From Candidatus Methanomethylophilaceae archaeon (GTDB taxonomy: Archaea > Thermoplasmatota > Thermoplasmata > Methanomassiliicoccales > Methanomethylophilaceae), in NCBI GenBank assembly GCA_017519045.1, contig JAFWTC010000051.1, positions 1 to 52,466 on the forward strand: 52,466 nt of DNA. The letters are read 5' to 3'. The position numbers were made by a program, and so were the translations under genes. The notes under the pieces were generated by a model. The model did no database searches. It was given only the letters and a program-made list of their open reading frames with translations, and was not told where the DNA came from. Shown here one piece after another: positions 229 through 50,451 of the stretch (the stretch's first letter is position 1; every line of letters starts with the position of its first letter).

Positions 229-1121
229 CTTCGGGCTCCTGAGACGTTGTGCCACACGCTGAAGATCGCTCCGGGAACCGTGGCCAGCGGAAGCGCCGGG
301 AAAGAGGAGGCGGCCAGCGAGGTGGCTAGGCCGGAGTTCTGCATCCCCACCTCTATGGACAGCGTCCTTCTCCTGTTCCGTTCCATTCCGGCTATGCGAC
401 CGACGACGTATCCCGCAGCATATCCGGCCAGGTTGTGAAGTACAACCACCGCGATGACCGTCAGGCCGCACTCTTCCAAAAGGCCGACCGAGCGGGATAC
501 GACGCACATCACTATCAGCACGATGGCGGCCAAGGACACCACGGGGAGCGCCCCGGAGGCCTTCTCCGTGGCCGACGGGAGGAAATGAGTCACGAGGAAC
601 CCTGCGGCCAGCGGGAGGACGACCACCTTGGCCATGGACAGGAACATCCCGGCCGCATCCACGTCTATAGACTGCCCGATAGCTAAAAGGACGATGAGCG
701 GGGTGACCAGCGGGGCCAGGAGGGTGTTGACGGCGGTCATCCCGACCGAGAACGGGACGTCCCCCTTGGCGAAGTAGGTGATCACGTTGCTGGCGGTTCC
801 CCCGGGACAGGCCCCCACGAGGATCACGCCGGCGGTCAGGCCTGCTTCCAGACCGAAGACGGAGCATAAGGCGTAAGCGGCCAGGGGCATGATGGTGAAC
901 TGCGCCGCGCATCCGATGGCGACATCCCTGGGGCGGACGAACACGGCCTTGAAGTCGGCCGGCCTTATCGTCAGCCCCATGCCGAACATTATGGCCATCA
1001 GCAGCCAGTCGATCCATCCCGTGCTTATCCACAGTCCCGTCGCCGGCGCCAGGAAAGCGAGGACGGCCGCCGCTAGGACCACCGCGGCCATGAAGCGCCC
1101 GACCGCCTCAGATGCGTTCAT
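225..1121 (-). CDS. Bile acid:sodium symporter (BASS) family transporter
   Basis: A 298-residue membrane protein with about nine hydrophobic segments. It carries the BASS signatures GACPGGTASNVITYFAKGD (about residues 103-121) and, near the end, the EVGMQNSGLA motif. The family uses a sodium gradient to move organic anions across the cytoplasmic membrane; the substrate cannot be read here. A TATA-like GCTATAAC lies about 27 nt before the ATG, fitting a leaderless transcript. Relatives usually continue some residues after the SVWHNVSG motif; here the frame ends just after it as GARR. The penultimate codon is CGA (231-233), so the real stop may be there. The downstream lipoprotein start overlaps by four bases. 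Confidence 0.88.
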   Translation of the reverse strand: MNASEAVGRFMAAVVLAAAVLAFLAPATGLWISTGWIDWLLMAIMFGMGLTIRPADFKAVFVRPRDVAIGCAAQFTIMPLAAYALCSVFGLEAGLTAGVILVGACPGGTASNVITYFAKGDVPFSVGMTAVNTLLAPLVTPLIVLLAIGQSIDVDAAGMFLSMAKVVVLPLAAGFLVTHFLPSATEKASGALPVVSLAAIVLIVMCVVSRSVGLLEECGLTVIAVVVLHNLAGYAAGYVVGRIAGMERNRRRTLSIEVGMQNSGLATSLAASSFPALPLATVPGAIFSVWHNVSGARR

Positions 1122-1143
1122 GCGACGCCCAGGACGAGGACGG

Positions 1144-1152
1144 TGTTATAGC
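1144..1152 (-). promoter_or_regulatory. TATA-like box of the BASS transporter gene
   Basis: On the minus strand GCTATAAC is centred about 27 nt upstream of the ATG at 1121, the usual archaeal distance from box to transcription start, so the mRNA is probably leaderless. No Shine-Dalgarno sequence is visible. Confidence 0.45.
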
Positions 1153-1206
1153 TTGCCTTGAATCTGCACATGAGCCCGCTCTATGATGCACTCAAGGGGC
1201 GTTAAC

Positions 1207-1216
1207 AGATATATCC
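1207..1216 (+). promoter_or_regulatory. TATA-like box of the NRPS1 operon
   Basis: AGATATATCC stands about 45 nt before the ATG at 1259, which predicts a short leader of roughly 20 nt. It is the only AT-rich element in the gap between the divergent BASS gene and NRPS1, so it probably drives NRPS1 and the SpoIIE and STAS genes behind it. Confidence 0.4.
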
Positions 1217-1258
1217 GATGCAGTAGCATACGGAATACATCACGAAGACGGGCGGCCG

Positions 1259-4200
1259 ATGGATATGCGGAACGTACTCGAGACTATTTTGGAAAGGGCG
1301 GAGTCCACGCCGGACAAGACGGCCATCTGGACTGACAAAGGGGCTTTCACATACAAGGAGCTGCGCGACTACTCGTACCGCACGGCGGCGGCCATGAAGA
1401 AGGACGGGCTGCGCAAGGGCGGGGGGATCACCATAGAGCTCCCCAGATGCAAGGAGTACATGGGATTCATGCTGGGCGCATGGATGCTGGGAGGATTCTT
1501 CGTCCCCTCCGACGACGCATATCCGAAGGACAGGAAGGACTACATCGCGGAGGACTGCAAGGCCAGGATACGCATCACGCCCGATTATCTGGAAAAGGTA
1601 GGCTCCAAGACGCTGGACTGCGACCCCGAGTTCTCCGCTCCCGAAGACGTGGCGTTCATAATCTACACGTCCGGCTCCACCGGAAGGCCGAAGGGGGTCG
1701 TCCATTCCCATCGCTCGATCTCCGCCCTCGTGGACAGGATCGGCGACCTCGTCAAGATCGAGGAGGACGACAAGTTCGCGAATCCCGCCTCGTTCACCTT
1801 CATCGTCGGGACCACCAACAACATCTTCCTCCTGGCCCTGGGGTGCCCGGACTACATCGTGCCCGCCGAAGCCCGCATGAACCTCAACAAGCTCTCCGAA
1901 TTCAACTCGGACCACGGGATAACCTACACGTTCATGGCCCCCGCCATGCTCCCGTATTACCGCCAGAAGAGCAAGACCCTCCGCATGGTCATCATCGGAG
2001 GGGAGCGCGCAGTCAAGGTCTGGTCCGACGACTTCACCATAGTCAACGGGTACGGGTCGTCGGAGACCTGCAGCATGGCCACATGCTTCTTCCTCGACAA
2101 GGCCTACGAGAAGACCCCTCTGGGGAAGCCCCTCAAAGGGGTGAACGCCTACATACTGGACGAGGACGGCGAAGAGGCGGAGGAGGGCGAGATATGCTTC
2201 ACAGGGCACTTCTCTGAAGGATACCTGAACCTCCCGGAGGCCACCGCGAAGACGTTCGTCCCGAATCCGTTCAAGGACCGCGACGGACATGACATGATGA
2301 TCCGCACCGGGGACATCGGGAGGCGCCTGGAGGACGGCAACCTCCTCTACCTGGAGCGCAAGGACTGGATGGTGAACATCAACGGCCAGCGCGTCGAGCC
2401 GGGAGAGATATCCGGGGTCATGATGACCATCCCCGGAATCGTACAAGCAGCGGTCAAGGACTTCCAGGGCGCCGACGACCAGACGTTCCTGTGCGCATAT
2501 TACGCGGCCGCCGTCGACATCCCCGAGGACGCCGTCCGCGACTATCTCAAGAGCAAGCTGCCCGGATACATGGTGCCCGCGTATCTGATGCGCATGGACA
2601 GGCTCCCGCTGAACCCCAGCGGAAAGATAGACAGGCATTCCCTCCCGGACCCCACCGCGCCCGGAAGCGGCTCCGCGGTCACCGCCGGACCCACGGACTT
2701 CGAGGAGAACGCGGTCACCAAGGGCGTGAGGGAGATACTGAAGGGCCTGACCGGAAGGGACGACTTCCGCTACGACGAGAATCTGGTCTACTGCGGACTG
2801 AGCTCGCTCACGGCCATCAAATTCGCATCGGAGGTCATGGGAAAGTTCGGCGTGGACATAGACGTGGCCTCGATGCTGGGAGGATGCTCCATAGCCTCCG
2901 TGTCCGACGAGATAATCTCGAAGCTCGTGGAGAAGGCGACGTCGGCTCCGGTCGATAGGAAGGCCCTCAGGGACAGATACCCGCTCACGAAGACGCAGAT
3001 GGGCGTCTACCAGGCGTGCTACGCCGACCCCGAGACCGTGATGTACAACATCCCGATGCAGGCCAGGTTCACGAAGGAGCAGCTGGCCGGGAGAAGCCTC
3101 GAGGACGCCTTCAGAAGCGCCGTCGAAGCCCATCCCGGGCTGAAATGCACCATAGAGCCCGACGGCAAGGGCGAGATGTGCATGGTCCCGCACCCGGACG
3201 CGGAGGTCAGGATCGAGCACATGGAAGGCTCCGAGTCCGACCTGGAGGCGTACCGCGGATCCTTCGTGAGGCCGTTCGACATGTCCGAGGGGCTGTACAG
3301 GGCGGTAATCTTCGACACCGGCGAGGCGGAGACGCTTCTCCTGGACTTCAGCCACATAATGTTCGACGGCTCGTCCAGCCTCATCCTCATGGACGACCTG
3401 AAGACCGCCCTGTCCGGAAAACGGCCAGCGGCGGAGACTTTCACCATGTTCGACCTCTCAGACGAGGAATCCGGGCGCATTGGATCCGGAGACTACGCCC
3501 GCTCCGAGAAGTACTATTCGGAGTTGCTCTCGGACGCGGACGGCGTCTCGCTCATACAGAGGGACGTCTACGGGGACGGGAGGGTCAAAGGACATCTGAG
3601 ATCCAAGCTGGACCTCCCTCCCGGGAAGCTGAAGGCGTTCGTCGAGTCCATAGGGACGAGCGAGAACGCGTTCTTCCAGTCGGCGATGGGATTCGCGCTG
3701 TCCAGGTTCAACTGCACCGACGACGCCTGCCATGCAACCGTATACGCGGGAAGGAGCGGGGGAAGGACGGCCCGCCTCGTGGGGATGCTGGTCAAGACCC
3801 TCCCGGTCGTGTTCAGGTTCGATCCGGACGAGAGCCCCGGGGCGCTCATAAGACGCACGGGGGACCAGATGATATCCTCGATGCAGAACGACGCGTTCCC
3901 GTTCTCGGAGATCAGCGCCCGCTTCGGAGTGACCTCGGACGTCCTGTTCGCATATCAGGGGATATTGGAGGACGAGGGCGCCCTGGACTCCCAGATGGAG
4001 ATAAGGGACGTCAAGAACCCCCTGACGGTGCAGGTGTACCCCATGACGGACGGGTTCCTCATGGACGTCGAATACGACGCGTCCATGTACTCGGAAGGAA
4101 TCATGAAGAGCTTCCTGTCCACGATGGAGAGATGCTCCCTCGGATTCCTGGACGCCCCGACGCTCAGGGACGTGGCGGTGGCCGGGGACGAGGACGTCGC

Positions 4201-7200
4201 CCTGGCGAAGAAGGTCAACTCCACCGACAGGGAGTACGACAAGAGTAAGACTATAGTCGATATGTACAGGGCCAGAGCGGCGGAACGCCCTGACGACGAC
4301 GCCGTGATATTTGGTAAGACTATAGTCTCATATTCGGAGCTGGACAGGATCTCGGACCATATAGCATCGTATATCTCTTCAAAAGGAATAGGCAAGGAGC
4401 AGTTCGTCTCCATACTGGTTCCGAGGTCCGCGACCATGGCAGTGGCCGCCATGGGAGTCGTGAAGTCGGGAGCCGCCTATCAGCCCCTGGACCCCACGTA
4501 TCCCGAGGAGCGCCTGCTGTTCATGATGCAGGACTCCGGGGTCAGGCTGCTGATAGCGGACAGGTCGCTGGTGGACCGGGTGCGCGGATACGAGTGTGAC
4601 ATCCTCTATACAGACGAGTTCGACCGGCTGTTCGCGGGAGAGGCTCCGAACGTGAAGGCGCTGGCCCCCTCGCCCGAGGACGCGTTCGTCATCCTTTACA
4701 CGTCCGGGACCACAGGAACTCCCAAGGGCTGCGTGCTGGAGAACAGGAACATAGCGGCATTCGCGGACTGGTACGGCAAGAAGACGGAGCTGGGGCCGGG
4801 ATCCAGATACGCCACATACGCCAGCTTCGGGTTCGACGCCTGCATGATGGACATCATGGTCCCCCTCTCCTACGGCGCCTGCATAGCCGTCATCCCCGAC
4901 GAGATCCGCAGCGACCTGAACGCCTTGGACGAATTCTACTCCGAGAACAGGATCACCCACGGGTTCATGACCACCCAGATGGGAAGGATGTTCATCGAGA
5001 ACACCAAGTGCAAGACCTTGAGGCACTTCTCCACCGGAGGCGAAGCGTTGGTTCCGGTCAAGCCGCCGGAGTGGCTGGAGTTCCACAACATCTACGGCCC
5101 CACGGAGACCACCGTGAGCGTTACCTCCTTCCTGGTGAAGAACGACTACCCCCTTCTGCCCATAGGGGTGCCGAACACCAACGTGAGAGTTTACGTGCTG
5201 GACAAGGACCGCAGGATCGTCCCCACGGGCGCGTGCGGAGAGCTGTGCATAAGCGGACCCCAAGTGTTCAGGGGATACCTGAACAATCCGGAGAAGACCG
5301 CCGCCGCGCTTGTGGACAACCCGTACTCCGACGGCCCGGACCACGACCGCATGTATCGGACTGGGGACATAGTCCGCCTGCTCCCTGACGGCAACGTGGA
5401 CTACATCGGACGCCGCGACGGAATGGTAAAGGTCCGCGGGTTCAGGATAGAGCTCACCGAAGTGGAGAGGGCGATACGCGCGTTCAAGGGAATCAAGGAC
5501 GCGACCGTCCAGGCGTTCGACTCCCCGTCCGGAGGAAAGCAGATCGCCGCGTACGTCGTATCCGACGAGAAGGTGGACGTCAGGGCATTGGAGAGTTTCA
5601 TACTCAGGACCAAGCCGCCGTACATGGTCCCGGCCGTGACGATGCAGCTCGACAGCATCCCGCTGACCGTGAACAGCAAGGTGGACAGAAGGAAACTTCC
5701 CGTTCCGACCATCGACCTGGGCGCGTCCACGCCGCCTAAAACTGACGTCCAGAAGCGCATTTTCAAGATTGCCTCGGAGGTCCTGGGCACCGACAGGTTC
5801 GGAATAGACACCGATCTTTTCCAGGCGGGCCTGACGTCCATAAGCAGCATCCGCTTCAACGTGCTCCTCTCGGAGGAGTTCGGCATACCGTTCAAGTCCA
5901 AGGACGTCAAGGAGAATAGCACTATAGTGAAACTCGAGAAGCTCATCGAGAGTTCCGCCCCCGCCGAGACGTTCGAGGTCCAGGACGACTATCCGCTCAC
6001 CAAGTCCCAGGAGGGGGTGTTCGTGGAATGCATGGCCAGGCCGGACAGCACCACATACAACATCCCCCTGCTGATAAGATACGACGGCTCGTTGGACGAA
6101 TCGAGGCTGAGGTCGGCCATCGCAGAGGCCGTCAACGCCCACCCGTACATGATGACCACCCTGGCCATGAACGACTCAGGGGACATCCGCCTCGTCAGGA
6201 AGGGCATACAGACGTTCAGCCCGGACGAGATAGAAGATGTCTCGACGGACTCCATCGGCTCCATCCTGCCGACGCTGGCCAAGCCGTTCCAGCTGATGGG
6301 TTCGAGGCTGTTCCGCATCAAGCTCATCCATGCCGACGGGAAGTACCTGTTCCTGGAGATGCACCACATCATCAGCGACGGGACGTCCATGAAGGTCCTG
6401 ATCGACGACATCTCCAGAGCGTACGCGGGCGAGAGGCTGGAGCCTGAGAGGTTCAGCGGATTCGAGGCGTCGCTCAAGGAGGCGGAGGAGAGGACCCCGG
6501 AGGCCCTCGCCGGCGCCAGGAAGTACTACGAGGACCTCCTGGCCGGCTACGACAGGGAGTTCCTCCCCAGGGGCGACAGATACCATCCGGACCCGGGATC
6601 CGAAGGAACCTTCCTGATGAGGAGCGGAAACGGGCTGGGCAGGATTCTGGCCGAGCGCTGCGAGAGGGCAGGAATCACCATGAACGGCCTCATGTGCGCC
6701 GCGTTCGGATACGTCCTCGCGAAGTACAACGGCAGCGGCCACTCGGTATTCACCACGATATACAACGGAAGGAGCGACTCCAGGACCATGGGCTCGGTGT
6801 CGATGTACGTCAAGACCCTCCCGGTCCTCTGCGACGTCTCGGACGACTCCATGTCCCCTCTGCGCCTGTCCGAGAAGATCGGCGCCCAGATCCTGGACAG
6901 CATGGCCAACGACATCTACTCCTTCTCGGAGGTCAGCCGCGAGCTCGAGGTCAAGGCCGACGTCATGTTCGTCTACCAGGGCGACGGATTCAAGTTCGAC
7001 GTCTTCTGCGGAAAGCCCTCCGAATCCGTCCAGGTCAGCCTGTCCGGCGAGAAGGAGCCCATACTGTTCCAGGTGGCCATGGACGGCGACGAGCTGGCGT
7101 ATCTCGTGGAGTTCGACAGGGACAGGTTCACCAAGGAGTTCATCAGGTTCTTCACGAAGTCGTTCGACAAGGCCGTGTCGGAGTTCCCGGTCTGCACCAC

Positions 7201-10200
7201 GCTGAGGGAGGTCGACCTGGCCGACGCCGACACCATGGCGGCCGTGAAGAGGATGAACGACACCGACGCCCCGTTCGACGGATCCATCACGGTGGTGGAC
7301 ATGTTCAGGAGGAACGCCAGGGAGCATCCAGACAATCTGGCGGTGGTCCATCTGGACGACAGCCTGACCTACGGGGAGCTGGACGAGAGGACGGACTACA
7401 TCGCCGGCTACATCCGCTCCAAGGGGATCGGGAAGGACGAGTACGTCGCCGTGCTTGTCCCAAGGTCCATGGACATGGTCGTCGCCGCGGAAGGCGTGAT
7501 AAAGTCTGGAGCGGCCTACCAGCCCCTAGACCCCACGTATCCCGAGGAGCGCCTGCTGTTCATGATGCAGGACTCCGGGACGAGGCTCCTGATAGCCGAC
7601 AGGTCCCTCCGCGGGCTTGTGTCCGGTTATAGCGGGGACGTCCTGTACACTGACGAGATCGACGGATTGTGCAACGGAAGACGCCCGGACGTCACGCAAT
7701 TCGCTCCAGCGCCCGAGGACGCCTTCATAATCCTGTACACGTCCGGAACCACCGGCACGCCCAAGGGATGCGTCCTGGAGCACAGGAACATAGCCAGCTT
7801 CCTCAACTGGATGATCCCGGAGGTCAAGCTCGACAGCAAGTCCAGATACGCCTCCTATGCGAGCTACGGGTTCGACGCGTGCATGATGGACATCCACTCC
7901 TCCCTCTCCGCCGGGGCCGCCGTCCATATAATTCCAGAGGACATGCGCAAGGACTTGGCCGAGATAGACCGGTACTTCATCAGCAACGGGATCACCCACG
8001 GGTTCATGACCACTCAGATGGGCAGGATGTTCATGGAGAACACGGAATGCAGGTCCCTCAAGGCGTTCATGACCGGAGGGGAGAGGCTGGTTCCGCTGAG
8101 CCCTCCCAAGTGGGTCGACTTCTACAACATCTACGGCCCGACTGAATGCACCGTGAACGTCACCACCTTCATCGTCAGAGACGACAGCCCCCTGCTCCCG
8201 ATAGGGAGGCCGAACACCAACGTGAGGCTGTACGTCCTGGACGGAAGCGACAGGATCGTCCCGGTGGGATGCTGCGGGGAGCTCTGCATCAGCAGCCCCC
8301 AGGTGTTCAGGGAGTACCTCAACAACCCCGAGAAGACCGCCAAGACCGTCACCAGGAGCCCGTTCTCCGACGAGCCCGGATTCGACCGCCTCTACAGAAC
8401 CGGGGACGTGGTCCGCATGCTCCCCGACGGGAACATAGACTACATCGGCCGCCGCGACGGGATGGTCAAGGTCCGCGGGTTCAGGATAGAGCTCGGAGAG
8501 GTCGAAGGCGCCGTGCGCGGATACCCGGGCATAAAGGACGCCACCGTGAAGGCCTTCGACGACCCCGCCGGAGGGAAGTCGATCACCGCCTACGTCGTCT
8601 CCGACGCCCCCGTCGACTTCAAGGGCCTCGCCGACTTCATCAGGAGCACCAAGCCGCCGTACATGGTCCCCGCCCACTTCATCCAGCTGGACTCCATCCC
8701 CATGACCGTCAACGGGAAGGTGGACAAGAGGAAGCTTCCAGAGCCCTCGTCCGAGCCCAGGAGGGCGGGAAGGGAGCCGTCCGGACCCGTGGAGACAAAG
8801 CTGTGCGAGATATTCGCCGGGGTCCTGGGCCTGGAGAAGGTGTACGCGGACGACGACTTCTTCGAGATCGGAGGGACGTCCATATCCGCGTCCAAGCTCG
8901 TGCTAAGCTGCATGAACTCGGGCTTCCCGATAGTATACAAGAACGTCTTCGACAACCCCTCCCCGGAGGCGCTGGCCAGGTTCATGGACACCCTCGGGAA
9001 GACCTCAGGAGAGGAGAAGAGGGCCGCCATAGACGAGAGCCCGCTGGCGGCCAACGTCGAGGAGAGCCTGGACTCCATAGGGTCGCACATCCCCCGCAGG
9101 ATCCTCCTGACGGGAGCCACCGGATACCTGGGCGCCCACGTCCTCCAGGAGCTTCTCAGAAGGAACGCGAAGCACGTCTGCTGCCTCGTGAGGAGCGGAA
9201 GGGGACAGACGTCCGAGGAGAGGCTGAAGACCGTCTTCATGTACTACTTCGGCGGGATGGCCTCCGAGGACTCCCTGAAAGACGTCTCCATAGTGGACGG
9301 CGACATCACCGACCAAAACCTTCTGGAGAAGCTGGAGGGATGCGAGTTCGACACGATAATCAACTGCGCCGCGGTGGTCAAGCACTTCGCTGCCGACGAC
9401 TCCATCGAAAAGGTCAACGTCGGAGGCGTCAAGAACCTCATAGACGTGGCCGAGAGGACCGGGTCCATGCTGGTCCAGATCTCCACGGAGAGCGTCGCCG
9501 GGGAGTCCGTCAACGGGAGCATCCCCGCGGACAGGAGGCTGAGGGAGAACGAGCTCGACTTCGGGCAGAACCTGGACAACAAGTACGCCCGCTCCAAGTT
9601 CATGGCCGAGGAGGAGATAATAAAGGCGATCCCGGGAGGCCTGAAGGCGAAGATCATCCGCGTGGGGAACCTCATGAGCCGCGACAGCGACGGGGAGTTC
9701 CAGATCAACTTCAACACCAACGCGTTCATGAAGCAGATGAGGTCCTACGTGAAGCTGGGATTCTTCCCCGTCACCGACATGGACGCGGAGGTGGAGTTCT
9801 CGCCGATAGACATGGTCGCCAAGGCCGTCGTGATCCTCGCCGGCACCCCCGACCGGTTCACCGTGTTCCACGTGAACAACTGCCACAAGGTCCACATGGC
9901 GAACGTCCTGAAGGTCATGAGGGACAACGGCATGCCCGTGGAGGTCGTCTCCAAGAAGGAGTTCGACAGAAGGTTCTTCGAGGCCATGAAGGACGAGGCC
10001 AACGAGGAGTACGTGTCCGGGCTGATAAGCTACCTCGGGAACGCCGGGGAGACCCGCAGGTTCATCGCGGCCGACGACTCCTACACGGTGAAGGCGCTGT
10101 ACAGGCTGGGATTCTCATGGCCCATAATCTCCGACGGATACATGGACAAGGCGTTCAAGACGCTGAAGTCCCTGAGGTTCTTCAGGCGAGGCCGCTTCTG

Positions 10201-15443: not shown

Positions 15444-16190
15444 TCAAAAAAAGGGATTATGACTCCCGAACTTCCAGTTGAAGACGTTTCGAATCCGAAA
15501 AATTGCTAAAATGTGGATGCGCCGATTCCGCCCTCGCATCTTCTTGAATCCTCTGAGCATCCATTCCCCGATGGACTTGAACCCGTACTTCAGGGTCCCC
15601 TTCATGTGGCGGCTCTGGCTGTGCGCCGTCGCCTTTCCCGCCATGACCGCCTCGACGACCTCCTGCCACGTCTCCAGGCCGTCCGGAATCTCCATGTAGC
15701 CCTCGCCTATGTGCGTCGGGGTGTGGGCGTCGCTCCCTGCGGTTATCGGCTTCCCGACCTTCCTGGCCAGGGCCTCCGACTTCCTGTTGGCCGACGGCAC
15801 GGACCTGCCGTTCCTCGCCTCGATGCCGTCGAACGGATAGGCCAAGGTGTTCTTCTCGCCCAGGCCGGACCACCACCTGTACGGGTGGGCCGCGAAGGCG
15901 TACCCTCCCGCCTCGTGGATCAGGTCGATGGTCTCCTGGATGGGGAGCCCCCTGGGGATGAGCCTGTCTATCCCCAGGGCGACTATGTGCCCCTCCTTGG
16001 AGGAGACCTCCTCGGCAGGGATGATTATCACCCTGCCGTTGTCCTTCACCTGCTCGTAGGCGTCGAAGCTGTTGTGGTCGGTGACGGCCACGCACCCTAT
16101 CCCGTTCATGACGGCGTATTCGACCAGCTCCTCGAGCGTGGTCCTGCCGTCTTTCGAAAAGAGCGTGTGGACGTGCAGATCGGCCTTCAT
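15444..16190 (-). CDS. PHP-domain metal-dependent phosphoesterase
   Basis: 248 residues from the ATG at 16190 (MKADLHVHT). PHP motifs are visible: DLHVHTLFSKDG, AVTDHNS, a Glu in IIPAEEVSS, AAHPYRW and AGSDAHT. These His/Asp/Glu residues bind metals for phosphoester hydrolysis; the substrate is not evident. The ATG overlaps the TGA of metG by four bases, so the two are co-translated. The last 31 codons are AT-rich and unlike the rest of the gene. The first in-frame CGA (15534-15536, after FKKM) may be the true end, giving 218 residues. Confidence 0.88.
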   Translation of the reverse strand: MKADLHVHTLFSKDGRTTLEELVEYAVMNGIGCVAVTDHNSFDAYEQVKDNGRVIIIPAEEVSSKEGHIVALGIDRLIPRGLPIQETIDLIHEAGGYAFAAHPYRWWSGLGEKNTLAYPFDGIEARNGRSVPSANRKSEALARKVGKPITAGSDAHTPTHIGEGYMEIPDGLETWQEVVEAVMAGKATAHSQSRHMKGTLKYGFKSIGEWMLRGFKKMRGRNRRIHILAIFRIRNVFNWKFGSHNPFF

Positions 16191-20383: not shown

Positions 20384-21436
20384 ATGGGCAGGGCTGACAC
20401 GCACCTCCATACGCATTACTCGGGATACTCGCAGCTCGGCAAGAGCATGAAGTTCCCCGAGTCCGTCATATCCCCCGAGACCCAGGTCGACAAGATGAGG
20501 TCTCTCGGCTACGACGTCATGGCCATAACCGACCACGACGAGACCGCCGGGGCGTTCAGGGGAGCGAAGTACGCCAAGAAGTTCGACGACATCGAGCTCA
20601 TCGTAGGCGAGGAGGTCAGCACCGCGGACGGCGAAATCATAGGGCTTTTCCTCAACGAAAGGGTCCCCAAGGGCCTCTCCGTCGAGGAGACCGTCGACAT
20701 CATCAGGTCCCAGGACGGGATGGTCATCGCCCCTCACCCCTTCAGCTTCCACGTCCCCGGCCTTCAGGAGAAGATCCTCGAGATAGACATAGACGGCTTC
20801 GAGACCATCAACGGAGGCCATCCGGACAAGTACTCCAACATGTTCGCCAAGAAGGTCATGGACGCCTATCCCGGGAGATGGGCCGACCTGGCAGGCAGCG
20901 ACGCGCATTCAGTATACACGTCCGGCACCTGCTGGACGGAGTTCGAGGGCGTCACTGCCGAGGATTTCCGCAAGTCCATCGAGAAGAGGACCACCCGCGC
21001 CGTAGGGAAGGCCGCTCCTCCGTTCGGACAGGTCCAATGGAGCGCGGAGGTCGTCATGGGAGGGCAGAAGCTCCTCTTCAAGAAGCTCAAAGGCGACCTG
21101 GACCAGGAAGAGGGCGACCAGCTCGCCGAGAAGATCCTCAGCATCAACAGCCTCAAGGCCGCGTCCGGGCTCATCGCCGGAAGCATGTACCTGTTCCCCC
21201 CGATAACCTGTCTGGCCAGCACCCTGAGCCTCATCTACCTGGGCATCGGGTCCAGGAAGATGATCTCGAAGATGGGCGACAGGCTCGCCGGAATCGACAA
21301 GATCCTTCGCAAGAGGGACGGCGGGGAGGTCAAGAATGCCGTGCTACAAGGTGGCGACCTGCATTCCGAGAAGGTTCCTAGACCCGTTGATGGACGAAGT
21401 GACGGCATCGGTCAGCCCCCTATACGGCGGCTATGA
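20384..21436 (+). CDS. PHP-domain protein with C-terminal membrane segment
   Basis: 350 residues. PHP motifs: DTHLHTHYSG, AITDHDE, GEEVS, APHPFSFH and AGSDAHS, so it is a probable metal-dependent phosphoesterase. Residues about 255-290 hold a hydrophobic pair of segments (GLIAGSMYLFPPITCLASTL...). The last third of the extra tail overlaps the next gene by about 100 bases and does not look coding. The true end may lie earlier; an in-frame CGA stands at 21395-21397. A palindromic metal-box-like site covers the start. ATG 20384 follows a TATA-like box by about 27 nt. Confidence 0.85.
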   Translation: MGRADTHLHTHYSGYSQLGKSMKFPESVISPETQVDKMRSLGYDVMAITDHDETAGAFRGAKYAKKFDDIELIVGEEVSTADGEIIGLFLNERVPKGLSVEETVDIIRSQDGMVIAPHPFSFHVPGLQEKILEIDIDGFETINGGHPDKYSNMFAKKVMDAYPGRWADLAGSDAHSVYTSGTCWTEFEGVTAEDFRKSIEKRTTRAVGKAAPPFGQVQWSAEVVMGGQKLLFKKLKGDLDQEEGDQLAEKILSINSLKAASGLIAGSMYLFPPITCLASTLSLIYLGIGSRKMISKMGDRLAGIDKILRKRDGGEVKNAVLQGGDLHSEKVPRPVDGRSDGIGQPPIRRL

Positions 21437-21692
21437 CAGATGCTTCTCGTACTGGCCCGTCACCGGCACATGGAGGCCGCTGGAAGGCTCCCGCCCGTTT
21501 CTGGGAAGGATAGGGGAGATCGAGGCCGCGGAAGAGTACAGGGTCGAGTTCGCCGTGCGCGAGGAGGACCTGGGCGCCGCGGTGGCAGCGATCCGCAGGA
21601 TCCATCCTTACGAAGAGCCGGCGATAGACATCATCCCGATGATTCCGTGGAAGGACGTCGCTGCTTCGGACGATAGGAGTAGATGTTGTCGA
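21336..21692 (+). CDS. NIF3/CutA-like small protein (YqfO C-terminal type)
   Basis: About 118 residues. MPCYKVATCIP, YDRCFSYWPVTGTWRPLEGS, IGEIEAAEEYRVEF and IHPYEEPAIDI match the stand-alone form of the domain inserted in NIF3/YqfO proteins, related to CutA; its role is unclear, possibly metal or nucleotide sensing. GGGGAGGT sits 7 nt before the ATG. Family members end near PYEEPAxD plus about ten residues. No standard stop occurs there; the frame would run to 21758 into antisense of the next gene, while CGA at 21690-21692 would close it. The end is therefore uncertain. Confidence 0.75.
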
Positions 21693-25419: not shown

Positions 25420-25794
25420 ATGAGAGTCGTCGCAACAGACAAGGCGCCGCCGGCCGCGGGCCCGTATTCCCAGGCCGTCGTCCAGAACGGAACCGTGTAC
25501 GTGTCGGGCCAGATACCCGTGGACCCTTCGACCGGGAGAATGCCGGAAGGCGCCGCGGCTCAGGCCAGGCAGGCGCTGGAGAATCTCAGGAAGGTCGTGG
25601 AGGCGTCCGGATCGTCCATGGACAAGGTCCTGAAAGTCACCGTATACCTGAAGGACATGGGCTCCTTCGCCGACGTCAACGCCGTCTATGCGGAATTCTT
25701 CTCGAAGCCGTACCCCGCCAGGTCGTGCGTGGGATGCCAGGACCTCCCGAAAGGCTCCCTGGTGGAGATCGACGCCGTGGCGTACATCGGCCGA
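25420..25794 (+). CDS. RidA family enamine/imine deaminase lacking a standard stop codon
   Basis: 124 residues plus CGA. SQAVVQNGTVYVSGQIPVDP, KVTVYLKDMGSFADVNAVY and PARSCVGCQDLPKGSLVEID are classic RidA motifs; the protein hydrolyses reactive enamines. Family members end right after the last strand, here VEIDAVAYIG. At that exact place the codon is CGA (25792-25794) instead of a stop. Under the standard code the frame stays open to 26244, through antisense of the radical SAM gene, with clearly non-coding composition. Either CGA terminates here or the stop has been lost. Confidence 0.88.
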
Positions 25795-32548: not shown

Positions 32549-32695
32549 ATGGCGCAATACAGACAGACGGTGCTGATGCCTCTGCCCAGGCAGCACCTCT
32601 CAGAGAAGGACTGGTATTCGAGGAACCCACGCGGAAGAAGGCAGGACAACAGGCGCGGAGAGGAGATCAACTCCATCATCGCGTTCTTCAAGCGA
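32549..32695 (+). CDS. Small basic ORF, uncertain
   Basis: 48 residues if CGA (32693-32695) ends it; the standard-code frame runs to 33052 inside another gene. The ATG has CAGGAGAA upstream and codon use is gene-like up to ...INSIIAFFK. The protein is basic (SRNPRGRRQDNRRGEE) and not recognised. It lies directly downstream of the iteron array, so it could be the regulated gene. It might also be a leader or a decayed gene. Confidence 0.35.
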
Positions 32696-39934: not shown

Positions 39935-40870
39935 TCGGTGCTTCGTGGTCATCTCCAATTCTATGTTGAAGAACCCGTTGCTGACGCTGTACGGGAGGGC
40001 CCTGTTGTCCTCCGCAGTCACGGTCTCGCCGTCGTCGAACACGAAGGTCATGGACTTCTCCGAAAGGGCCTTGTAATCCCTTTCGGGAATCCCGGTCCAG
40101 GCGAGCATGCCGCAGGATTCGATGGTCCTCTTTATATTGGACATGGTCTCGGCGTCCACCGGCTTCTCGCTCTCGTACTCGTTGGGCCCGTAGCGGGACC
40201 TCTTCCTGTTGATCCCGGTCCCGTCCGCGTTGAACGTGAGTGTCGCCCGGACGTATCCGTCATTGCGCTCCTCGGATAGGCGTATCTCCCTGAGGCCGGA
40301 CAGGTCCTTGAGGGGGACCCTCTCCTCCTTCATGAAGGACTCGAACATGCCTTCCATCCTGAGCGCCATGTCGTACGGGAGCACCGGACACTGGTTGTTC
40401 GAAGTGCTTATCTTCTCCCCGCTGGCGTATTTCACGAGGATGCTACCTCCGAAGTTCTCCGGCAGGCCGTAGGTGTTGGAATGGGATCCGTTCCACTTGG
40501 CCAGATCGAATTCGTTGACCAGGTCCACCAGGTCCGGCATCACGTCCCTCTTGACGAGGGCGAGAGACGACTTCACGGGGCCTCTGCACTCCTTGACCTT
40601 CGCAAGATTCACGAAGGTCCCCTTCTCGCCGTGGATCGCGAACGCCGAGATGTACCAGAGCCTGTCGCGATTATCGTATTCCGGGGGGAGCGCGATCGTG
40701 GAGAACGACGAATCGACTTCGAAGAGCGTCATATCCTTAGAAAGGATCTTCTTGGGGGCCTTCGTGTCGCGATAGGCGTCGGTGCCTCCGCACATCATGG
40801 GCTCTACCTTGCTGATTATCTCGATGCCGTCCGGCTCGACCTGCTCGTCATCCGTCTGCTTCCCGCACAT
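39935..40870 (-). CDS. Unknown protein lacking a standard stop codon
   Basis: 311 residues from MCGKQTDDEQ (ATG 40870) to ELEMTTKH, where CGA follows (39935-39937). It contains a Cys pair (MMCGG), a run of well-formed beta/alpha segments (ALVKRDVMPDLVDLVNEFDL, LRMEGMFESFMKEERVPL) and a C-terminal FVFDDGETVTAED. I do not recognise the family. Under the standard code the frame stays open to 38822, 1.1 kb antisense inside NRPS2, with non-coding composition. Upstream extension to 41032 contains CGA codons and overlaps the divergent ABC gene. It ends seven bases from the NRPS2 stop if CGA terminates. Confidence 0.65.
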
Positions 40871-41030: not shown

Positions 41031-41801
41031 ATGCAGGTCGAGACCGCGGACCTGTCCTTCTCCTACAAGGACAAGAGAGTCCTGGAATCCGTCTCCCTCA
41101 GGTTCGGCGAGGGGGAAGTCGTATCCATTATCGGCCCGAACGGAGTGGGCAAGTCGACCTTCCTGCATTGCCTCAACAAGCTGCTGACCCCCTCCGGCGG
41201 AAGCGTCATGGTCGATGGAAGGGGCGTGTCCGAGTACGGGCTGAAGGAGCTGGCCAGGGTGATGGGGTACGTCCCGTACTCCCCGGCGTCCAACTTCCCC
41301 CTGAGCGTGATAGACATGGTCGTCATGGGGCGCCACCCCTACAGCAGAATCGGCTCGGCCAGAGACGATCTGAAGGCAGCGCACTCCATACTCGAGAAAC
41401 TCGATATAGAGAACCTGGCGTTCCGCCCGTTCACGGAGCTCTCTGCCGGACAGCGCCAGAAGGTGATGATAGCGAGAGGCCTCGTCCAAGACCCGGACGT
41501 CCTCCTGCTGGACGAGCCCACCGCCAACCTGGACGTCAAGCACCAGATGGAGGTCGCCGGCCTTCTCAAGGACCTGTCCCGCAGGAACAGCCTCTCGGTG
41601 GTGATGGTGAGCCATGAGCTGAACATCGCCGCGAAATATTCCGATAGGATGGTGCTCCTAAGCGAAGGGAAGGTCTTCACCGCAGGAACCCCTTGGGAGG
41701 TCCTGACCCCTGAGAACCTGCGCGCGGTGTACGAGGTCGACGCCGACGTGGCCGACCACGGAGGGAGACCATACGTAATGCTGAACGGACCGGTGCGGCG
41801 A
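41031..41801 (+). CDS. ABC transporter ATPase, FecE/BtuD type, lacking a standard stop codon
   Basis: 256 residues. Walker A GPNGVGKST, Q-loop region MGYVPYSPAS, signature LSAGQRQKVMIARGL, Walker B VLLLDEPTANLD and the switch His in VSHELN are intact. It powers import of an iron-siderophore, heme or corrinoid by the two permeases that follow. ATG 41031 is about 25 nt after a TATA-like box. The C-terminus PYVMLNGPVR is where relatives end, and the next codon is CGA (41799-41801), one base before the permease ATG. With the standard code the frame would run 700 codons through permease 1 and into permease 2. Confidence 0.93.
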
Positions 41802-41802: not shown

Positions 41803-42876
41803 ATGTCCGAGCAGGAGTTCGCCGACGGGTACCTCAGATACGTCCGTCACAAGGTCGTGTTCATATCCGCGGCCTTGGCGGCCCTGGCAATCGCCGCGGG
41901 GGCATCCTGCCTAGTCGACGGCAGGCCCATCGGAATCCTGGACGTCTACAGGATAATCTGGGAGCACCTGACTGGAGCCAGATACGAGTACGCTACGCCC
42001 GAGTACTGGGACGACTTCGTCGTATGCCAGATGAGGCTCCCCAGGACCGTCCTCGCAATCGTCGCCGGATCCTCGCTGGCCGTCTGCGGGACGGTGATGC
42101 AGAGCATAATGTCCAATCCTCTGGCAGACCCCTACACCACCGGGATGTCCTCCGGCGCATGCCTCGGATCGATAATCGCCATCGCCATGGGCTTCGCGTT
42201 CACCGGGCCCTCGATATACGGGATCGTCGGGATGTCCTTCCTCATGGCCCTCGTGCCCGCCTTCGTGGTCATCCTGGCCTCCAGGCTCGTGAACACCTCG
42301 CCGGCGACGCTGATCCTCATGGGCACGATAATGTCGTATCTGTTCAGCGCCGTGAACACCCTCATACTGGTCAATCAAGAGGGCGAGACCCTGTCCGCGG
42401 CGTACCTGTGGACCATAGGGTCCCTGGACAACGTCATCTGGAGCGACCTCTGGATCCCCGGGATGACCTCGGTCCTGGGATGCGCCGCGATGCTCGCCAT
42501 GTCCGGGAAGCTGAACGTGATGATGATGGGCGACGACCAGGCCCGCAGCATGGGCCTCGACGTCGACAACTTCAGGACGGTCCTCCTTCTGGTGCTGTCC
42601 GTCATGGTCGCGTCCATAATCAGCTTCACCGGAATCCTCGGATTCGTAGGCCTGGTGGCCCCGCACATCGTCAGGATGGCCATAGGGTCGGACAACAAGT
42701 TCGTGATCCCGGCGTCCATGGCCTTCGGATCGGCGCTCCTGCTGGTCACGGACACGGTCGCCAGACTGGTCGTCTATCCGTACGAGATACCCGTCGGCAT
42801 AGTCCTGATGTTCATCGGCGGGCCGCTGTTCTTGTACGTAGTCGTGCGCAAGAAAGGATACGGGGGGATTTACTGA
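41803..42876 (+). CDS. FecCD/BtuC-type ABC permease 1
   Basis: 357 residues with eight to ten hydrophobic helices. Typical FecCD signatures: RLPRTVLAIVAGSSLAVCGT, MSNPLADPYTTGMSSGACLG and GFVGLVAPHIVRMAIGSDN. It forms half of the membrane channel. It begins one base after the probable CGA end of the ATPase gene and ends in a four-base overlap with the next permease. Confidence 0.94.
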   Translation: MSEQEFADGYLRYVRHKVVFISAALAALAIAAGASCLVDGRPIGILDVYRIIWEHLTGARYEYATPEYWDDFVVCQMRLPRTVLAIVAGSSLAVCGTVMQSIMSNPLADPYTTGMSSGACLGSIIAIAMGFAFTGPSIYGIVGMSFLMALVPAFVVILASRLVNTSPATLILMGTIMSYLFSAVNTLILVNQEGETLSAAYLWTIGSLDNVIWSDLWIPGMTSVLGCAAMLAMSGKLNVMMMGDDQARSMGLDVDNFRTVLLLVLSVMVASIISFTGILGFVGLVAPHIVRMAIGSDNKFVIPASMAFGSALLLVTDTVARLVVYPYEIPVGIVLMFIGGPLFLYVVVRKKGYGGIY

Positions 42877-46052: not shown

Positions 46053-46127
46053 ATGTTCCTGTCACGTCTGGAAGACCTGATTGGGCGATGGAAAAAACGT
46101 ATTATTCCGACAGGCGATGAGATCCCC

Positions 46128-46290: not shown

Positions 46291-46294
46291 ACGG

Positions 46295-46373: not shown

Positions 46374-46466
46374 TTGAAGGACCGCCGATGAATCCGCGAC
46401 GGACGCATAATAATTTGCGAACGAACGCAACAATAATAACGGGAGGCTCAATCACATGTCGGTCAG

Positions 46467-47801
46467 ATGGCTAGCATATCCCAACGCCTGGAATCCCTCC
46501 CCATGACGAGGACCTCGTGGATGATCCTCATCATCATCGGGCTGGGATGGATGTTCGACGCGATGGACCAGGGCATGGTCAGCGGCGTCATAGCGTCCAT
46601 AGGGACCGACTGGAACCTTTCCCTCTATGAGAAGAGCTGGCTCACCAGCTCCGGCATCTTCGGGATGATCATAGGGGCCGCCCTGTCAGGAAACATCGCG
46701 GACAGATGGGGAAGGCGCAACGTCATCCTCGGAACCCTGCTGATCTACTCAGCGGGAAGCGCCCTCTGCGGGATATGCACGGAATACTGGATGCTCATAG
46801 TCTGCCGTTTCATAACCGGATTCGGGCTGGGAGGCGAGCTCCCTACCGCGTCCACGATGGTCACCGAGATGTCCCCCGCCCGCTACCGCGGCAGGAACGT
46901 GGTCCTGCTGGAGAGCTTCTGGGCATGGGGATGGATCGCCGCCTCCCTGGTCGCGTTCCTGGTCATCCCCGTGTACGGGTGGCGCGCGGCGTTCTTCGTC
47001 GGAGCCCTTCCCGCCCTGTTCGCGGCCGTCCTGAGGTTCTCCATCCCCGAATCCCCCAGATACCTGGAGATCGCCGGCCGCCACGAGGAAGCCAACGCCA
47101 TCGTCTCCAGGATGGAGGAGGAGGCGGGAGTCAAGCCCAACGACGGAGGGCCGGAGGAAGCGTGCGCGAAGCCCAGGTGGACCGATTCCTTCAGAAAGAT
47201 CTGGTCCCGCGGGAACATCCGTTCGACCGCGGTCCTCTGGATCATATGGTTCGGCATCAACTTCGGATACTACGGGTTCGTTCTCTGGACCCCAAGCCTG
47301 CTCATGGACAGGGGGTTCGAGATGGTGCGCGGGTTCGAGTTCACCGTGATAATGTGCTTCGCCCAGCTGCCCGGATACTTCAGCGCGGCCTACCTCATAG
47401 AGAGGATAGGACGCAAGCCCACCATGATAATCTACTTCGCAGGGACGGCCGTGGCCGCCTGGCTGTTCGGACACGCCGGGGACGAGGGCTCCATACTGGC
47501 CTCCGGATGCCTCCTGTACTTCTTCGCCCTCGGGGCCTGGGGATGTGTCTACTCCTACACCCCCGAGGTGTACCCCACCGACGTCCGGGCCTCCGGATCC
47601 GGATGGGCATCGGCGTTCGGACGCATAGGCGCGTTCATAGCCCCCTTCATAGTCCCGGCGCTCTACGAAATGTACGACTCCGACACGGGCTTCACCATGG
47701 TCTTCGCGGTGCTCACCGCGACCTTCGCCATAGTGGCGATAACCGTGGCGGTGTTCGGGAAGGAGACGAAGAACCGCAGGCTCAAGGACGTCTCCGACCG
47801 A
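46467..47801 (+). CDS. MFS permease, sugar/aromatic-acid type (12 TM)
   Basis: About 444 residues. MFDAMDQGMVSGVIASI, GNIADRWGRRNVILGTL and CRFITGFGLGGELPTASTMV are typical of the metabolite:H+ symporter branch; RYLEIAGRHEEANAIV lies in the central loop and PEVYPTDVRASG in the second half. The substrate is unknown. It ends at FGKETKNRRLKDVSD, then CGA (47799-47801), which is followed at once by a GAGGTGATGG ribosome site for the next gene. The standard reading would go on to 47897, overlapping that gene by 85 bases. Confidence 0.9.
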
Positions 47802-47812
47802 GGTGATGGACG

Positions 47813-48988
47813 ATGTTCGGGAAGCCGTCGGCCAAGAGGTTCGAGGACGTCAGGCTGGACGGCGTCCCGGAGGCCGCTCCCGACTCGGCGGAGATAGGAA
47901 AGACGGTCTACCAGCGCATCGACGAGGGGCGCGTCCGCGTCCTGAGGCATCAGGGAGGGAAGCCCCATGTGGAGGTTCCGCCCGAGATATACGTCGCCAA
48001 GAAGGAATACGCCGTGGTCGAGATCGGCGAGGGCGCGTTCGCCGGACATTCAGAGCTGGCCTCCGTCAGCCTTCCGGACGGCGTCGAGACCATCGGGGAC
48101 CAGGCGTTCGAGGGATGCTCCGGGCTCGTCGAGATCGTCATACCGCGCGGAACGACCAGCATACGCGGGGGCGCCTTCGCCAGTTGCTCGAAGCTGGAGA
48201 CGGTCCGCATGCCAGACAGCCCGAGGAAGATAGCCAAGCATGCGTTCGAGGGATGCTCCTCGCTCAAGGCCTTCATCGCCGAGAAAGGAAAGGGGGACTA
48301 CGTCTCCGACAAGGAAGGATGCCTTTATGACAACGGGTCCGACCGCCTCTTCCGCGTGCCGTACGCCGCATCCGGGACGGTGGACGTCCCTCCCGGAACC
48401 AAGGAGATAGCCGGCGAGGCCCTCTCCGGATGCGTCGGCGTGACCTCCGTCAGGATACCTTCCAGCGTGGAGAAGATGGGCGACAAGGTCTTCTCGGGAT
48501 GCGGCGCCATCGCCATGATCTACGTCAACCCCCGCAACGAGCGCTTCAGATCCGACCTCCAGGGGATTCTTTACGACTCCGAGGTCACCGAGGTCGTCCG
48601 CGCCCCGAACAGCGTGACCGGGGAGCTTGAGATCCCCGCGACGGTCAGGAGGATACGCATGAACGCCTTCGAGAAATGCTCCGGGCTGACCTCGGTGACC
48701 ATCCCGTACGGGACCGCCACCATAGAGGACTCCGCCTTCGAGGGCTGCTCCAAGATACGCAGGCTCTCGCTTTCCGGCAGCATACGCTACATCGGCGAGG
48801 GCGCGTTCAGGGGATGCGCCGGGATCGTCTCCGTGACCATACCGGACAGCGTGGAGGAGATTGGGGACGGCGCCTTCGCAGGATGCTCCCGCCTGGTCTC
48901 CGCATCGATCCCCATGGGCACGAGGCTCGGAGAGCGGGTGTTCCCGGCCAACTGCGACATCAGGCTGGAGCGACGGACGGGAAAGTAA
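47813..48988 (+). CDS. BspA-type leucine-rich-repeat protein (LRR_5)
   Basis: 391 residues. After a 60-residue N-terminal part (RVLRHQGGKPHVEVPPEIYV) come about twelve repeats such as IGDQAFEGCSGLVEIVIPRG and IEDSAFEGCSKIRRLSLSGS. No signal peptide is seen. GAGGTGAT lies 5-8 nt before the ATG. It follows the MFS gene closely. The only CGA codon stands at 48971-48973, five codons before the TAA; the fold ends there (ANCDIRLE). Confidence 0.85.
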   Translation: MFGKPSAKRFEDVRLDGVPEAAPDSAEIGKTVYQRIDEGRVRVLRHQGGKPHVEVPPEIYVAKKEYAVVEIGEGAFAGHSELASVSLPDGVETIGDQAFEGCSGLVEIVIPRGTTSIRGGAFASCSKLETVRMPDSPRKIAKHAFEGCSSLKAFIAEKGKGDYVSDKEGCLYDNGSDRLFRVPYAASGTVDVPPGTKEIAGEALSGCVGVTSVRIPSSVEKMGDKVFSGCGAIAMIYVNPRNERFRSDLQGILYDSEVTEVVRAPNSVTGELEIPATVRRIRMNAFEKCSGLTSVTIPYGTATIEDSAFEGCSKIRRLSLSGSIRYIGEGAFRGCAGIVSVTIPDSVEEIGDGAFAGCSRLVSASIPMGTRLGERVFPANCDIRLERRTGK

Positions 48989-49017
48989 CTTAACATCGGC
49001 ATCGCATGGGCCGGCGC

Positions 49018-50451
49018 ATGGACAGAAGAGAGCTATTCGAGAAGATCGCGGACCGTCTCCGCGACCCCGCCTCGCTGGCGAGGAACATGTCGGAGTCGGG
49101 GTTCGACAAGAAGGACGTCAACGTCGTCAAGTTCATGGTGTCGGCGAGCGAGGAGGACTTCAGGGCCGCCGCCTACTCCGAGGACGCCTCCGCGTCCACC
49201 AAGGCGGTCACCAAGCTGTCGGAGGAGACCTCCATCGAGAGGGCGACGATCGCCTCGTTGATAGCGGAAATCCGCTCGACCCTCGGCCTGGTGCGCCCCG
49301 CGACCCACGTCAGCGAGCTCATGGAGGTCAAGAACGCTGGAAACAACCTCATGCTCGGCCCCGGCGGGTTCCTGTTCAGGCCGGATCCCAACAGGGCCAG
49401 GAGCCTGTTCCTGTACAGGTACGTCGGGGAGGACCGCGACGTGGAGGTCCCGGAGGCTGTGCAGATGGGCGGCCTGCGCTACGAGGTGGACTCGATCGGG
49501 GACAGCGCGTTCAAAGGGACGAAGGTCGAGTCGGTAGCCTTGCATGACGGGATCAGGACCGTGGGCGCCACGGCGTTCAGGGACTGCACCGAGCTGAAGT
49601 CGATGACGATACCCCGCACGGTCCTGGAGGTCGGCGTGGGCGCGTTCAGGGGATGCTCCGCCCTCCCTTCCATCGAGGTCGAGGAGGGGAGCCGCGGATA
49701 CGCGTCAGTGGACGGAATCGTATACGACAGGGACCTCAAGGAGCTGCTCCATGCCCCCGGAGGGCTGGAAGGGGACGTGAAAATACCGGAAGGCACCGAG
49801 AGGATAGGGGCGTTCGCATTCTACGGATGCGAGAAGATGACGTCCGTCTGCCTTCCGGATACGCTGAAGGCCATCGGCGATTCGGCGTTCAACGGATGCT
49901 CCGGGCTGGCCGCCTTGAGGATTCCCGCATCGCTAGACTCCATCGGGGGATACGCGTTCAGCGGATGCTCCGGGATCAAGGGGTTCACGGTCGAGGGCGG
50001 GAACATGACGTATTCATCCATGGACGGATGCCTCTGCTCCAAAGACGGGAGGACCCTGATCAAGGCCCCTGCCGGCGACTTGACGGAAGCCAGGATCCCC
50101 GCCTCCGTGGAAGAGGTCGGGACGGGCGCCTTCGGAGGCTGCCTGAAGATCGAGAAGGCGAGGATAGGCCCGGGGGTCCGCTCCGTAGGGCAGGACGCCT
50201 TCAAGGGATGCGCCTCCCTGAAGGACTTGGAGATCTCCGAGGGGGTGGAGAGCATCGGGAAGTACGCGTTCTTCGGATGCACGTCACTGGAGGAGGTCGT
50301 CGTGCCGGATACGGTGAGGTCGATGGGGACCTGGGCGTTCGGAGACTGCTCCTCGCTCAAGAAAGCGTCGGTGCCGTCTTCTATGGATCTGGGGCCCACG
50401 TCGTTCCCGCAGGTCACGGAGATTGTCAGGAGACGAGGGAAGAACAATTAA
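49018..50451 (+). CDS. BspA-type leucine-rich-repeat protein with helical N-terminal domain
   Basis: 477 residues from the ATG at 49018, about 28 nt after a TTAAC box; ATG 49006 is possible. Residues 1-90 are helical and charged (ELFEKIADRLRDPASLARNM, AVTKLSEETSIERATIASLI) and may bind a partner. From about 115 follow LRR_5 repeats (IGDSAFNGCSGLAALRIPAS, VGQDAFKGCASLKDLEISEG). No signal peptide. The only CGA (50434-50436, after EIVRR) lies five codons before the TAA. Confidence 0.85.
   Translation: MDRRELFEKIADRLRDPASLARNMSESGFDKKDVNVVKFMVSASEEDFRAAAYSEDASASTKAVTKLSEETSIERATIASLIAEIRSTLGLVRPATHVSELMEVKNAGNNLMLGPGGFLFRPDPNRARSLFLYRYVGEDRDVEVPEAVQMGGLRYEVDSIGDSAFKGTKVESVALHDGIRTVGATAFRDCTELKSMTIPRTVLEVGVGAFRGCSALPSIEVEEGSRGYASVDGIVYDRDLKELLHAPGGLEGDVKIPEGTERIGAFAFYGCEKMTSVCLPDTLKAIGDSAFNGCSGLAALRIPASLDSIGGYAFSGCSGIKGFTVEGGNMTYSSMDGCLCSKDGRTLIKAPAGDLTEARIPASVEEVGTGAFGGCLKIEKARIGPGVRSVGQDAFKGCASLKDLEISEGVESIGKYAFFGCTSLEEVVVPDTVRSMGTWAFGDCSSLKKASVPSSMDLGPTSFPQVTEIVRRRGKNN

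Follow-up and report, generated by a model that had tools for sequence, protein, structure and literature searches.

Does the codon CGA end genes in the archaeon from which this DNA derives? The window, meaning the whole stretch of 52,466 nucleotides that was analysed, is contig C50 of an 86-contig, 1.9-Mb archaeal genome (G000) that is 91% complete. By its release factor aRF1, the nearest named relatives are Methanomassiliicoccales, the closest being rumen and gut metagenome-assembled genomes of Methanomethylophilaceae. An initial annotation of the window had proposed that CGA acts as a terminator. We consider it likely that, in the genus of the window genome (labelled g1 here), CGA has changed its meaning from arginine to stop, that it is read by aRF1 and that aRF1 thereby limits its own synthesis.

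CGA was found on the intended strand at all 14 positions for which a role as gene end had been suggested. The nonribosomal peptide synthetase (NRPS) gene (1259-10189, plus strand) and MetG, both said to lack internal CGA, were confirmed in this respect. The NRPS gene has 2,977 codons, of which the final one is the sole CGA, as against 57 CGC, 7 CGG, 20 AGA and 103 AGG; MetG (746 codons including the stop) has none. In 30 open reading frames (ORFs) of the window, each extended as far as a standard stop, CGA made up 9 of 860 arginine codons. Seven of these lay at most 30 codons before the stop, and the other two were located at the N-terminal edge of the ORF, upstream of the chosen starts. The gene caller used for the window cuts genes at CGA by design, and the absence of internal CGA from its genes is no evidence. 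With CGA allowed as an end, the 36 confident window genes (coding score of at least 45) end in CGA (10), TGA (22), TAG (2) or TAA (1), or at the contig edge (1).

Protein family models end close to several of these codons. RidA (124 aa; 25420-25794, plus strand) has CGA as codon 125 (25792..25794); the TIGR00004 match at residues 2-122 covers profile positions 2-124 of 125, and the next standard stop is 150 codons on. The gene for a FecE/BtuD-like ATP-binding cassette ATPase (256 aa; 41031-41801, plus strand) has CGA as codon 257 (41799..41801). Four ATPase models, each 253-261 positions long, stop matching at residues 242-250 of this protein, the next stop is 708 codons on and the ATG of the next gene is at 41803. 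In the major facilitator superfamily (MFS) transporter gene (426 aa; 46521-47801, plus strand), CGA is codon 427 (47799..47801), the TIGR00898 match ends at residue 423 (position 505 of 506) and the next stop is 32 codons on. The NRPS of 2,976 aa ends at CGA 10187..10189 (codon 2977), with model NF047350 reaching position 2365 of 2373 at residue 2966 and the next stop 21 codons on. At 15534..15536, CGA closes the gene for a PHP-domain metallohydrolase (15534-16190, minus strand); TGA occupies the same codon in the relatives G006 (68% identity) and G036 (73% identity), and its own next stop is 30 codons on. A second PHP-domain protein gene (20384-21397, plus strand) ends at CGA 21395..21397, which closes a high-scoring coding segment, with the next stop 13 codons on. 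For a minus-strand gene without a family match (39935-40870), the frame past CGA 39935..39937 stays open for 371 codons, antisense to a convergent gene ending at 39928.

Other sites were less informative. The caution that single cases with a stop nearby are weak applies to 231, 48971 and 50434, where a standard stop follows within 2-5 codons. At the first, a bile-acid/PanS-type transporter gene (231-1121, minus strand) has CGA as codon 297 (231..233), with the PanS model match ending at residue 296 (position 290 of 299) and TGA two codons on. The other two are BspA-type leucine-rich-repeat genes (47813-48973 and 49018-50436, both plus strand) that end at CGA 48971..48973 and 50434..50436 by coding score, each with TAA five codons on. 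At 21658, 21690 and 32693, CGA is present, but the case for a gene end is weak, the ORFs being short or low-scoring. The last of these (ORF 32549-32695, plus strand; possible end 32693..32695) has a low coding score and one weak G006 homologue (31% identity, 43 bits) with TGA at that codon. The proposed end at 25787 on the minus strand is antisense to RidA and was unsupported.

The proposal that CGA terminates also held outside the window. In a 397-kb sample of the window genome (21% of it), codons that follow 25 open coding-like codons were classified by whether the next 25 codons scored as coding or non-coding, using a model that gives CGA zero weight. CGA was followed by non-coding sequence in 112 of 125 instances and by coding sequence in 4, comparable to TGA (208 of 246 and 19, respectively; Fisher p = 0.20 for CGA versus TGA). 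For 15 other sense codons, only 6-24% were non-coding downstream, and the counts were 84/366 for CGG, 53/224 for CGT, 157/1,820 for CGC, 63/429 for AGA and 18/136 for CAA (Fisher p ~3e-41 for CGA versus CGG). The sample contained 93 distinct CGA-ended ORFs, about one-quarter of all ends counted. Both the preceding codon and the +4 base vary at these ends, the latter being C in 17 and T in 43. No back-up stops were seen behind CGA in this sample, because the next in-frame stop lies about as far downstream of CGA (median 28 codons, n = 112) as of TGA (median 22 codons, n = 208). Taken with the gene ends above, these results indicate that CGA is almost certainly a terminator in the genus.

The 93 CGA-ended ORFs were compared with the DNA of relatives, accepting matches of at least 70 bits that reach the end; 47 genes gave 82 gene-by-group pairs, and the remaining 46 had no qualifying match. 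In 32 of the 82 comparisons, the codon aligned with CGA was a standard stop; the count fell to 12 for either adjacent codon and to 0-6 for any codon beyond these, up to 10 away. These exact replacements were TGA in 30 cases, TAA in one and TAG in one, and the homologue shared CGA at the same place in three further comparisons. The first terminator of the homologue fell within two codons in 64 of 80. Examples picked from this set include an NF003700-family gene, which ends ...SFKN-CGA and has TGA in G006 (90% identity) and G083 (92%), and Kae1, which ends ...VTWRS-CGA and has TGA in G006. An ACT-domain protein gene ends with CGA in the window genome and with a standard stop in relatives, a CGA-ended PUA protein gene would otherwise stay open for 485 codons, and the UMP kinase gene has CGA here and in the relative COG_1 (G097) and TGA in four others.

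The same test was applied to relatives, with results given as CGA codons with coding sequence upstream, then those with coding and with non-coding sequence downstream. The counts were 36:3:26 for G006, 13:2:10 for G036, 5:0:5 for G083 and 74:4:59 for G005, and 33:5:20 and 23:4:17 for pooled named loci of the genus. COG_1, a member of a Methanomethylophilus-like clade, gave 84:1:64; judged by these flanks, CGA is clearly a stop there as well. Locus L107, close to the COG_1 clade, gave 9:0:7 in 21 kb. The non-coding fraction for CGG in the CGA-stop relatives was 0.22-0.40, and the GC content of samples with CGA as stop was 53-63%. Mostly sense behaviour was observed in the outgroup G018 (143:98:19), in Methanoplasma-like loci (19:11:3) and in G100 (41:23:14). 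An early per-genome version of the test on samples of 6-38 kb was set aside, as the samples were too small and the model was mistrained for G005 and G007.

The view that CGA is never an internal arginine codon stands insofar as CGA is nearly absent inside genes, but it has one exception conserved across the genus, codon 78 of the aRF1 gene, which lies outside the window. In-frame CGA codons were surveyed in 99 aRF1 rows (29 from the genus, 11 from a second clade comprising Methanomethylophilus and relatives, and 59 others). All 29 genus rows (21 non-redundant) contain exactly one, at the conserved Arg78, a position that is also arginine in human eRF1; the other conserved arginines of these genes are encoded by AGG, CGC, CGT or AGA. 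The preceding codon is GCT or TCT in all 27 rows with letters there, and the next base is C in 29 of 29; T-ending codons account for 6.7% of GCN/TCN codons elsewhere in the gene. The frameshift site of bacterial prfB, CUU UGA C, likewise has U before and C after its stop codon. In the second clade, exactly one CGA is present in 11 of 11 rows, at Arg25, and is followed by GGA in 10. Both CGA78 and CGA25 lie early in a gene of about 410 codons, and the reading frame runs on through the CGA, such that no frameshift is needed for the full-length protein. In the aRF1 tree, the genus and the Arg25 clade each form one clade, and the Arg25 clade groups with Methanoplasma-like species rather than with the genus at a fork with a support of 89/83. 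As support for that fork is limited to these values, a single origin with reversal is possible.

Gene ends within the Arg25 clade point the same way. In six of seven members examined (L121, L122, L131, L135, L138 and L148, in the first 1.6 kb of each locus), the end of (d)CMP kinase and the in-frame start of cbf5 are parted by CGA and at most one codon, and L145 differs. In L121, the sole member scanned, the (d)CMP kinase model ends at residue 296 of 298. Standard annotation would make one fusion of the two genes.

The suggestion that the release factor had changed was followed by aligning aRF1 with its relatives. Position 65, which corresponds to Arg68 of human eRF1 by alignment (counted from Lys63 of the NIKS motif), is indeed altered, being Met, but Met or Leu also occurs there in relatives with CGA as an arginine codon. 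All 68 rows of the clade that holds the genus have Met or Leu at this position, whereas Arg or Lys is found in 20 of 22 rows from outgroups, three of which (L140, L147 and L155) are also titled Methanomethylophilaceae. According to one study, free-energy calculations for eRF1 Arg68Ala predict that the penalty for C at the first position falls from ~6 to 1-2 kcal/mol (PMC5681627). Because sense-CGA relatives share the change, it would be at most permissive. Other residues were rejected as causes. The change of NIKS to NIRS (K63R) was found only in G000 and G005/L137 among the 99 rows, and Tyr56 to Gln and Ser59 to Ala are common to Methanoplasma-like sense clades. Within aRF1 residues 1-159, only positions 17 and 76 are fixed in the genus and rare elsewhere, and they are mostly not shared by the Arg25 clade. 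As to the motif itself, NIRS is present in the aRF1 of G000 (L051, 6364-7593) and G005 (L062), and the other rows covering it have NIKS. The factor may be UGA-centred, given the presence of PylS and the frequent occurrence of TAG before coding sequence.

The idea that tRNA-Arg(UCG) had been lost proved incorrect: a tRNA search found the gene in the window genome (G000:C55), in G006 and in COG_1. The genus copies are nevertheless unusual. All 19 copies recovered (from 18 of 31 genus genomes and one named genome) have an anticodon-arm defect, which is a 31-39 stem mismatch in 11 and C33 in the other eight. U33 is near-universal in tRNAs. Neither defect occurs in any of 18 rows outside the genus (of which L176 and L221 are apparently the same place). 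The tRNA thus looks weakened in the genus. Loss of the gene from the G006 subclade was also considered and rejected, as a copy with C33 was found there.

These observations can be combined into a mechanism. An aRF1 that lacks the equivalent of eRF1 Arg68, the residue that is predicted to restrict the first codon position to U, would read CGA beside UGA. A tRNA-Arg(UCG) that is kept but weak would lose the competition with aRF1 at gene ends, and it would be kept mainly for the single in-frame CGA at Arg78 of aRF1. When aRF1 is plentiful, its synthesis would halt at codon 78; when it is scarce, the tRNA would read this codon as arginine and full-length aRF1 would be made. The result would be negative feedback as in bacterial RF2, achieved via readthrough of a reassigned sense codon in place of a frameshift. 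The reader of CGA is likely to be aRF1, and autoregulation at codon 78 (or 25) is probable, if somewhat less secure. A broader reading is that this is the first cellular sense-to-stop reassignment, and that it took hold in at least two lineages of a single archaeal family once aRF1 had permissively lost its Arg68 equivalent. In each of them, the new stop within its own gene would serve aRF1 as an autoregulatory readthrough switch (Arg78 in one, Arg25 in the other), with tRNA-Arg(UCG) kept to read it and weakened in the Arg78 lineage. We lean towards this broader reading, which is rated slightly lower because CGA25 and CGA78 also occur outside both clades and the fork support is only 89/83.

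Several results weigh against the reassignment or against parts of its proposed mechanism. In the coding test, the standard stops TAA (16 of 34 non-coding) and TAG (42 of 150) scored below CGA; TAG may be a sense codon in this genome, and for TAA there is no explanation beyond small numbers. Among the four of 125 CGA codons with coding sequence on both flanks, those in aRF1 and CobQ are clearly internal. CobQ of the window genome (L049, G000:C39, ~17700, minus strand) has GICGGY followed by CGA; the corresponding codon is CAG (Gln) in 14 of 14 relatives from the genus. The two codons differ at two bases, and an assembly error or a damaged gene is a possible cause. Homology counts of internal CGA were also not low. 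A first count found 10 in the window genome, 5 of which align mostly with arginine; for the other members of the genus it found 383 among 8,030 arginine codons, and 270 of the 383 align in this way. A second count gave 26 of 561 (32 genes) and 184 of 4,775, respectively. At face value, the latter frequencies of 4.6% and 3.9% are no lower than those of most sense relatives (3.6-7.1%). Of the 26 cases, 23 precede a likely start, two are at an end and one is in aRF1, the three ORFs that hold 24 of them having been inspected; of the 184, 19 are aRF1 codon 78 and the remainder were inspected in part. These counts are confounded by ORFs read upstream of their starts and by overlapping out-of-frame or antisense ORFs, and our conclusions do not rest on them.

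Further points of this kind concern the factor, the tRNA and the conserved codons. The Arg68 change is common to Methanoplasma-like species with CGA as sense and is not sufficient, and the published Arg68Ala prediction extends to CAA and CAG, yet both behave as sense here. Species with NIKS (L080-L082) use CGA about as often as the NIRS genomes. The tRNA-Arg(UCG) gene is present in all three genomes with listed tRNA sets (G000, G006 and G097), and in COG_1, whose copy has neither anticodon-arm defect, no tRNA match in the genome scores below this copy (30.8 bits). Of the 59 aRF1 rows outside both clades, 13 have CGA at codon 25 and 8 have it at codon 78, and 20 also have exactly one CGA, at various places; a single CGA is therefore not rare per se, unlike its fixed place. 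In the Arg25 clade, five RUG-type species that were pooled use CGA rarely, and when they do it is followed by non-coding sequence in 2 of 9; CGA avoidance may thus precede capture. Finally, a fast-evolving gene near aRF1 contains an internal CGA that falls in one alignment column, DI[RKS]-CGA-[IL][TS], in three species of the G006 subclade (L060 6227-7522, L063 5585-6919 and L093 6060-7325, all minus strand).

Three other explanations for the CGA ends were weighed. In one, the code is standard and a C-to-U deaminase edits CGA to UGA in mRNA. C-to-U editing forms some stop codons in plant organelles, and papers on plant mitochondrial genomes are among the literature matches listed for CGA stops. 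The homologue replacements, mostly TGA (30 of 32 at the exact codon) and a single C/T step away, would fit such editing. It would need to act at perhaps one-quarter of genes with varied flanks, yet spare the aRF1 codon at least in part, and it predicts neither the release factor as the gene with a conserved internal CGA nor the tRNA-Arg(UCG) defects. We know of no such mRNA editing in archaea, a point on which the literature was not searched, and regard this explanation as very improbable. An unassigned and poorly read CGA, at which ribosomes stall and are rescued by aPelota/ABCE1 without recognition by aRF1, is improbable too, if slightly less so. The weakened look of tRNA-Arg(UCG) and the scarcity of CGA also in relatives that hardly use it as a stop would be expected from it. 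However, CGA ends 10 of the 36 confident window genes and also the housekeeping genes Kae1, Cbf5 and UMP kinase, where rescue in each round would be costly, and the release factor as the gene with a conserved internal CGA would be left unexplained.

It is scarcely credible that CGA is still arginine, very rare and tolerated only near C termini, with proteins extending to the next standard stop. The tRNA-Arg(UCG) gene is present, and several window sites have a stop no more than five codons away, as such run-on would allow. Elsewhere it would append as many as 708 codons from sequence that is non-coding, antisense or overlapping, and both families and homologues end at or beside the CGA, with next-stop distances that match those after TGA. 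Reassignment of CGA to stop, read by aRF1, is the explanation we retain.

In the cellular (non-organelle) code changes known to us, a stop codon gains a meaning or amino acids are swapped. Sense codons that became terminators are described for mitochondria: UCA in Scenedesmus and other Sphaeropleales and UUR in Pycnococcus, with changes in release factors noted (PMC6821328, PMC4695839). Those changes resemble the one proposed here in direction and differ in setting, as they involve organelle genomes and the bacterial-type mtRF1a rather than a 1.9-Mb cellular genome and an archaeal aRF1; in addition, the tRNA cognate to UCA is described as absent there (PMC4695839), whereas tRNA-Arg(UCG) is kept here. 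Among prokaryotes, the arginine CGN codons have been reassigned repeatedly: the large Codetta screen lists CGA and CGG read as Trp in Absconditabacteria and CGG reassignments in Firmicutes (PMC8629427). Those are sense-to-sense changes at a GC content of 0.26-0.38, unlike the sense-to-stop change at 53-63% GC. As Codetta is blind to sense-to-stop changes (PMC9825746), a CGA stop may have been missed. The RF2 gene prfB is likewise autoregulated through a conserved early in-frame terminator in the gene of the factor that reads it (PMC12421855). That system uses a programmed frameshift, whereas here the frame would continue with the codon read as arginine, and the factor is of the archaeal/eukaryotic type. 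Pyrrolysine TAG in methanogens offers another parallel, since PylS is encoded in the window genome and both would be competitions between a tRNA and a release factor; the direction is opposite, with stop-to-sense for TAG. Among the matches listed from the open-access literature, which excludes preprints and subscription papers, no work was found that describes a CGA stop codon in archaea or other cells, or another sense-to-stop change in a cellular genome.

Stages of the process seem to exist side by side, namely relatives with CGA as sense, species that hardly use CGA, and species in which it accounts for at least one-quarter of terminations. This would let the order of factor loosening, codon avoidance, capture and feedback be tested. 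If CGA is a stop as proposed, standard-code annotation of these gut and rumen methanogens contains false C-terminal extensions, false fusions and missed gene ends, and the system draws attention to those residues in the eRF1/aRF1 family by which the first base of the stop codon is held.

The fast-evolving neighbour of aRF1, for which scans of two loci (L060 and L093) against Pfam and NCBIfam gave no match, may be another gene under CGA control. In L117, the gene lacks that CGA and has an in-frame TAG further on, and in L091 a CGA is located elsewhere in the gene. In the 397-kb sample, of 147 TAG codons after coding-like sequence, 43 preceded coding sequence and another 43 preceded non-coding sequence; with PylS present, TAG looks partly sense in this genome. 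TAA ends are scarce there (17 versus 210 for TGA). In the window, the NRPS at 1259-10189 has three adenylation domains and a C-terminal NAD-binding (reductase-like) domain, and its nearest model is aureusimine synthetase.

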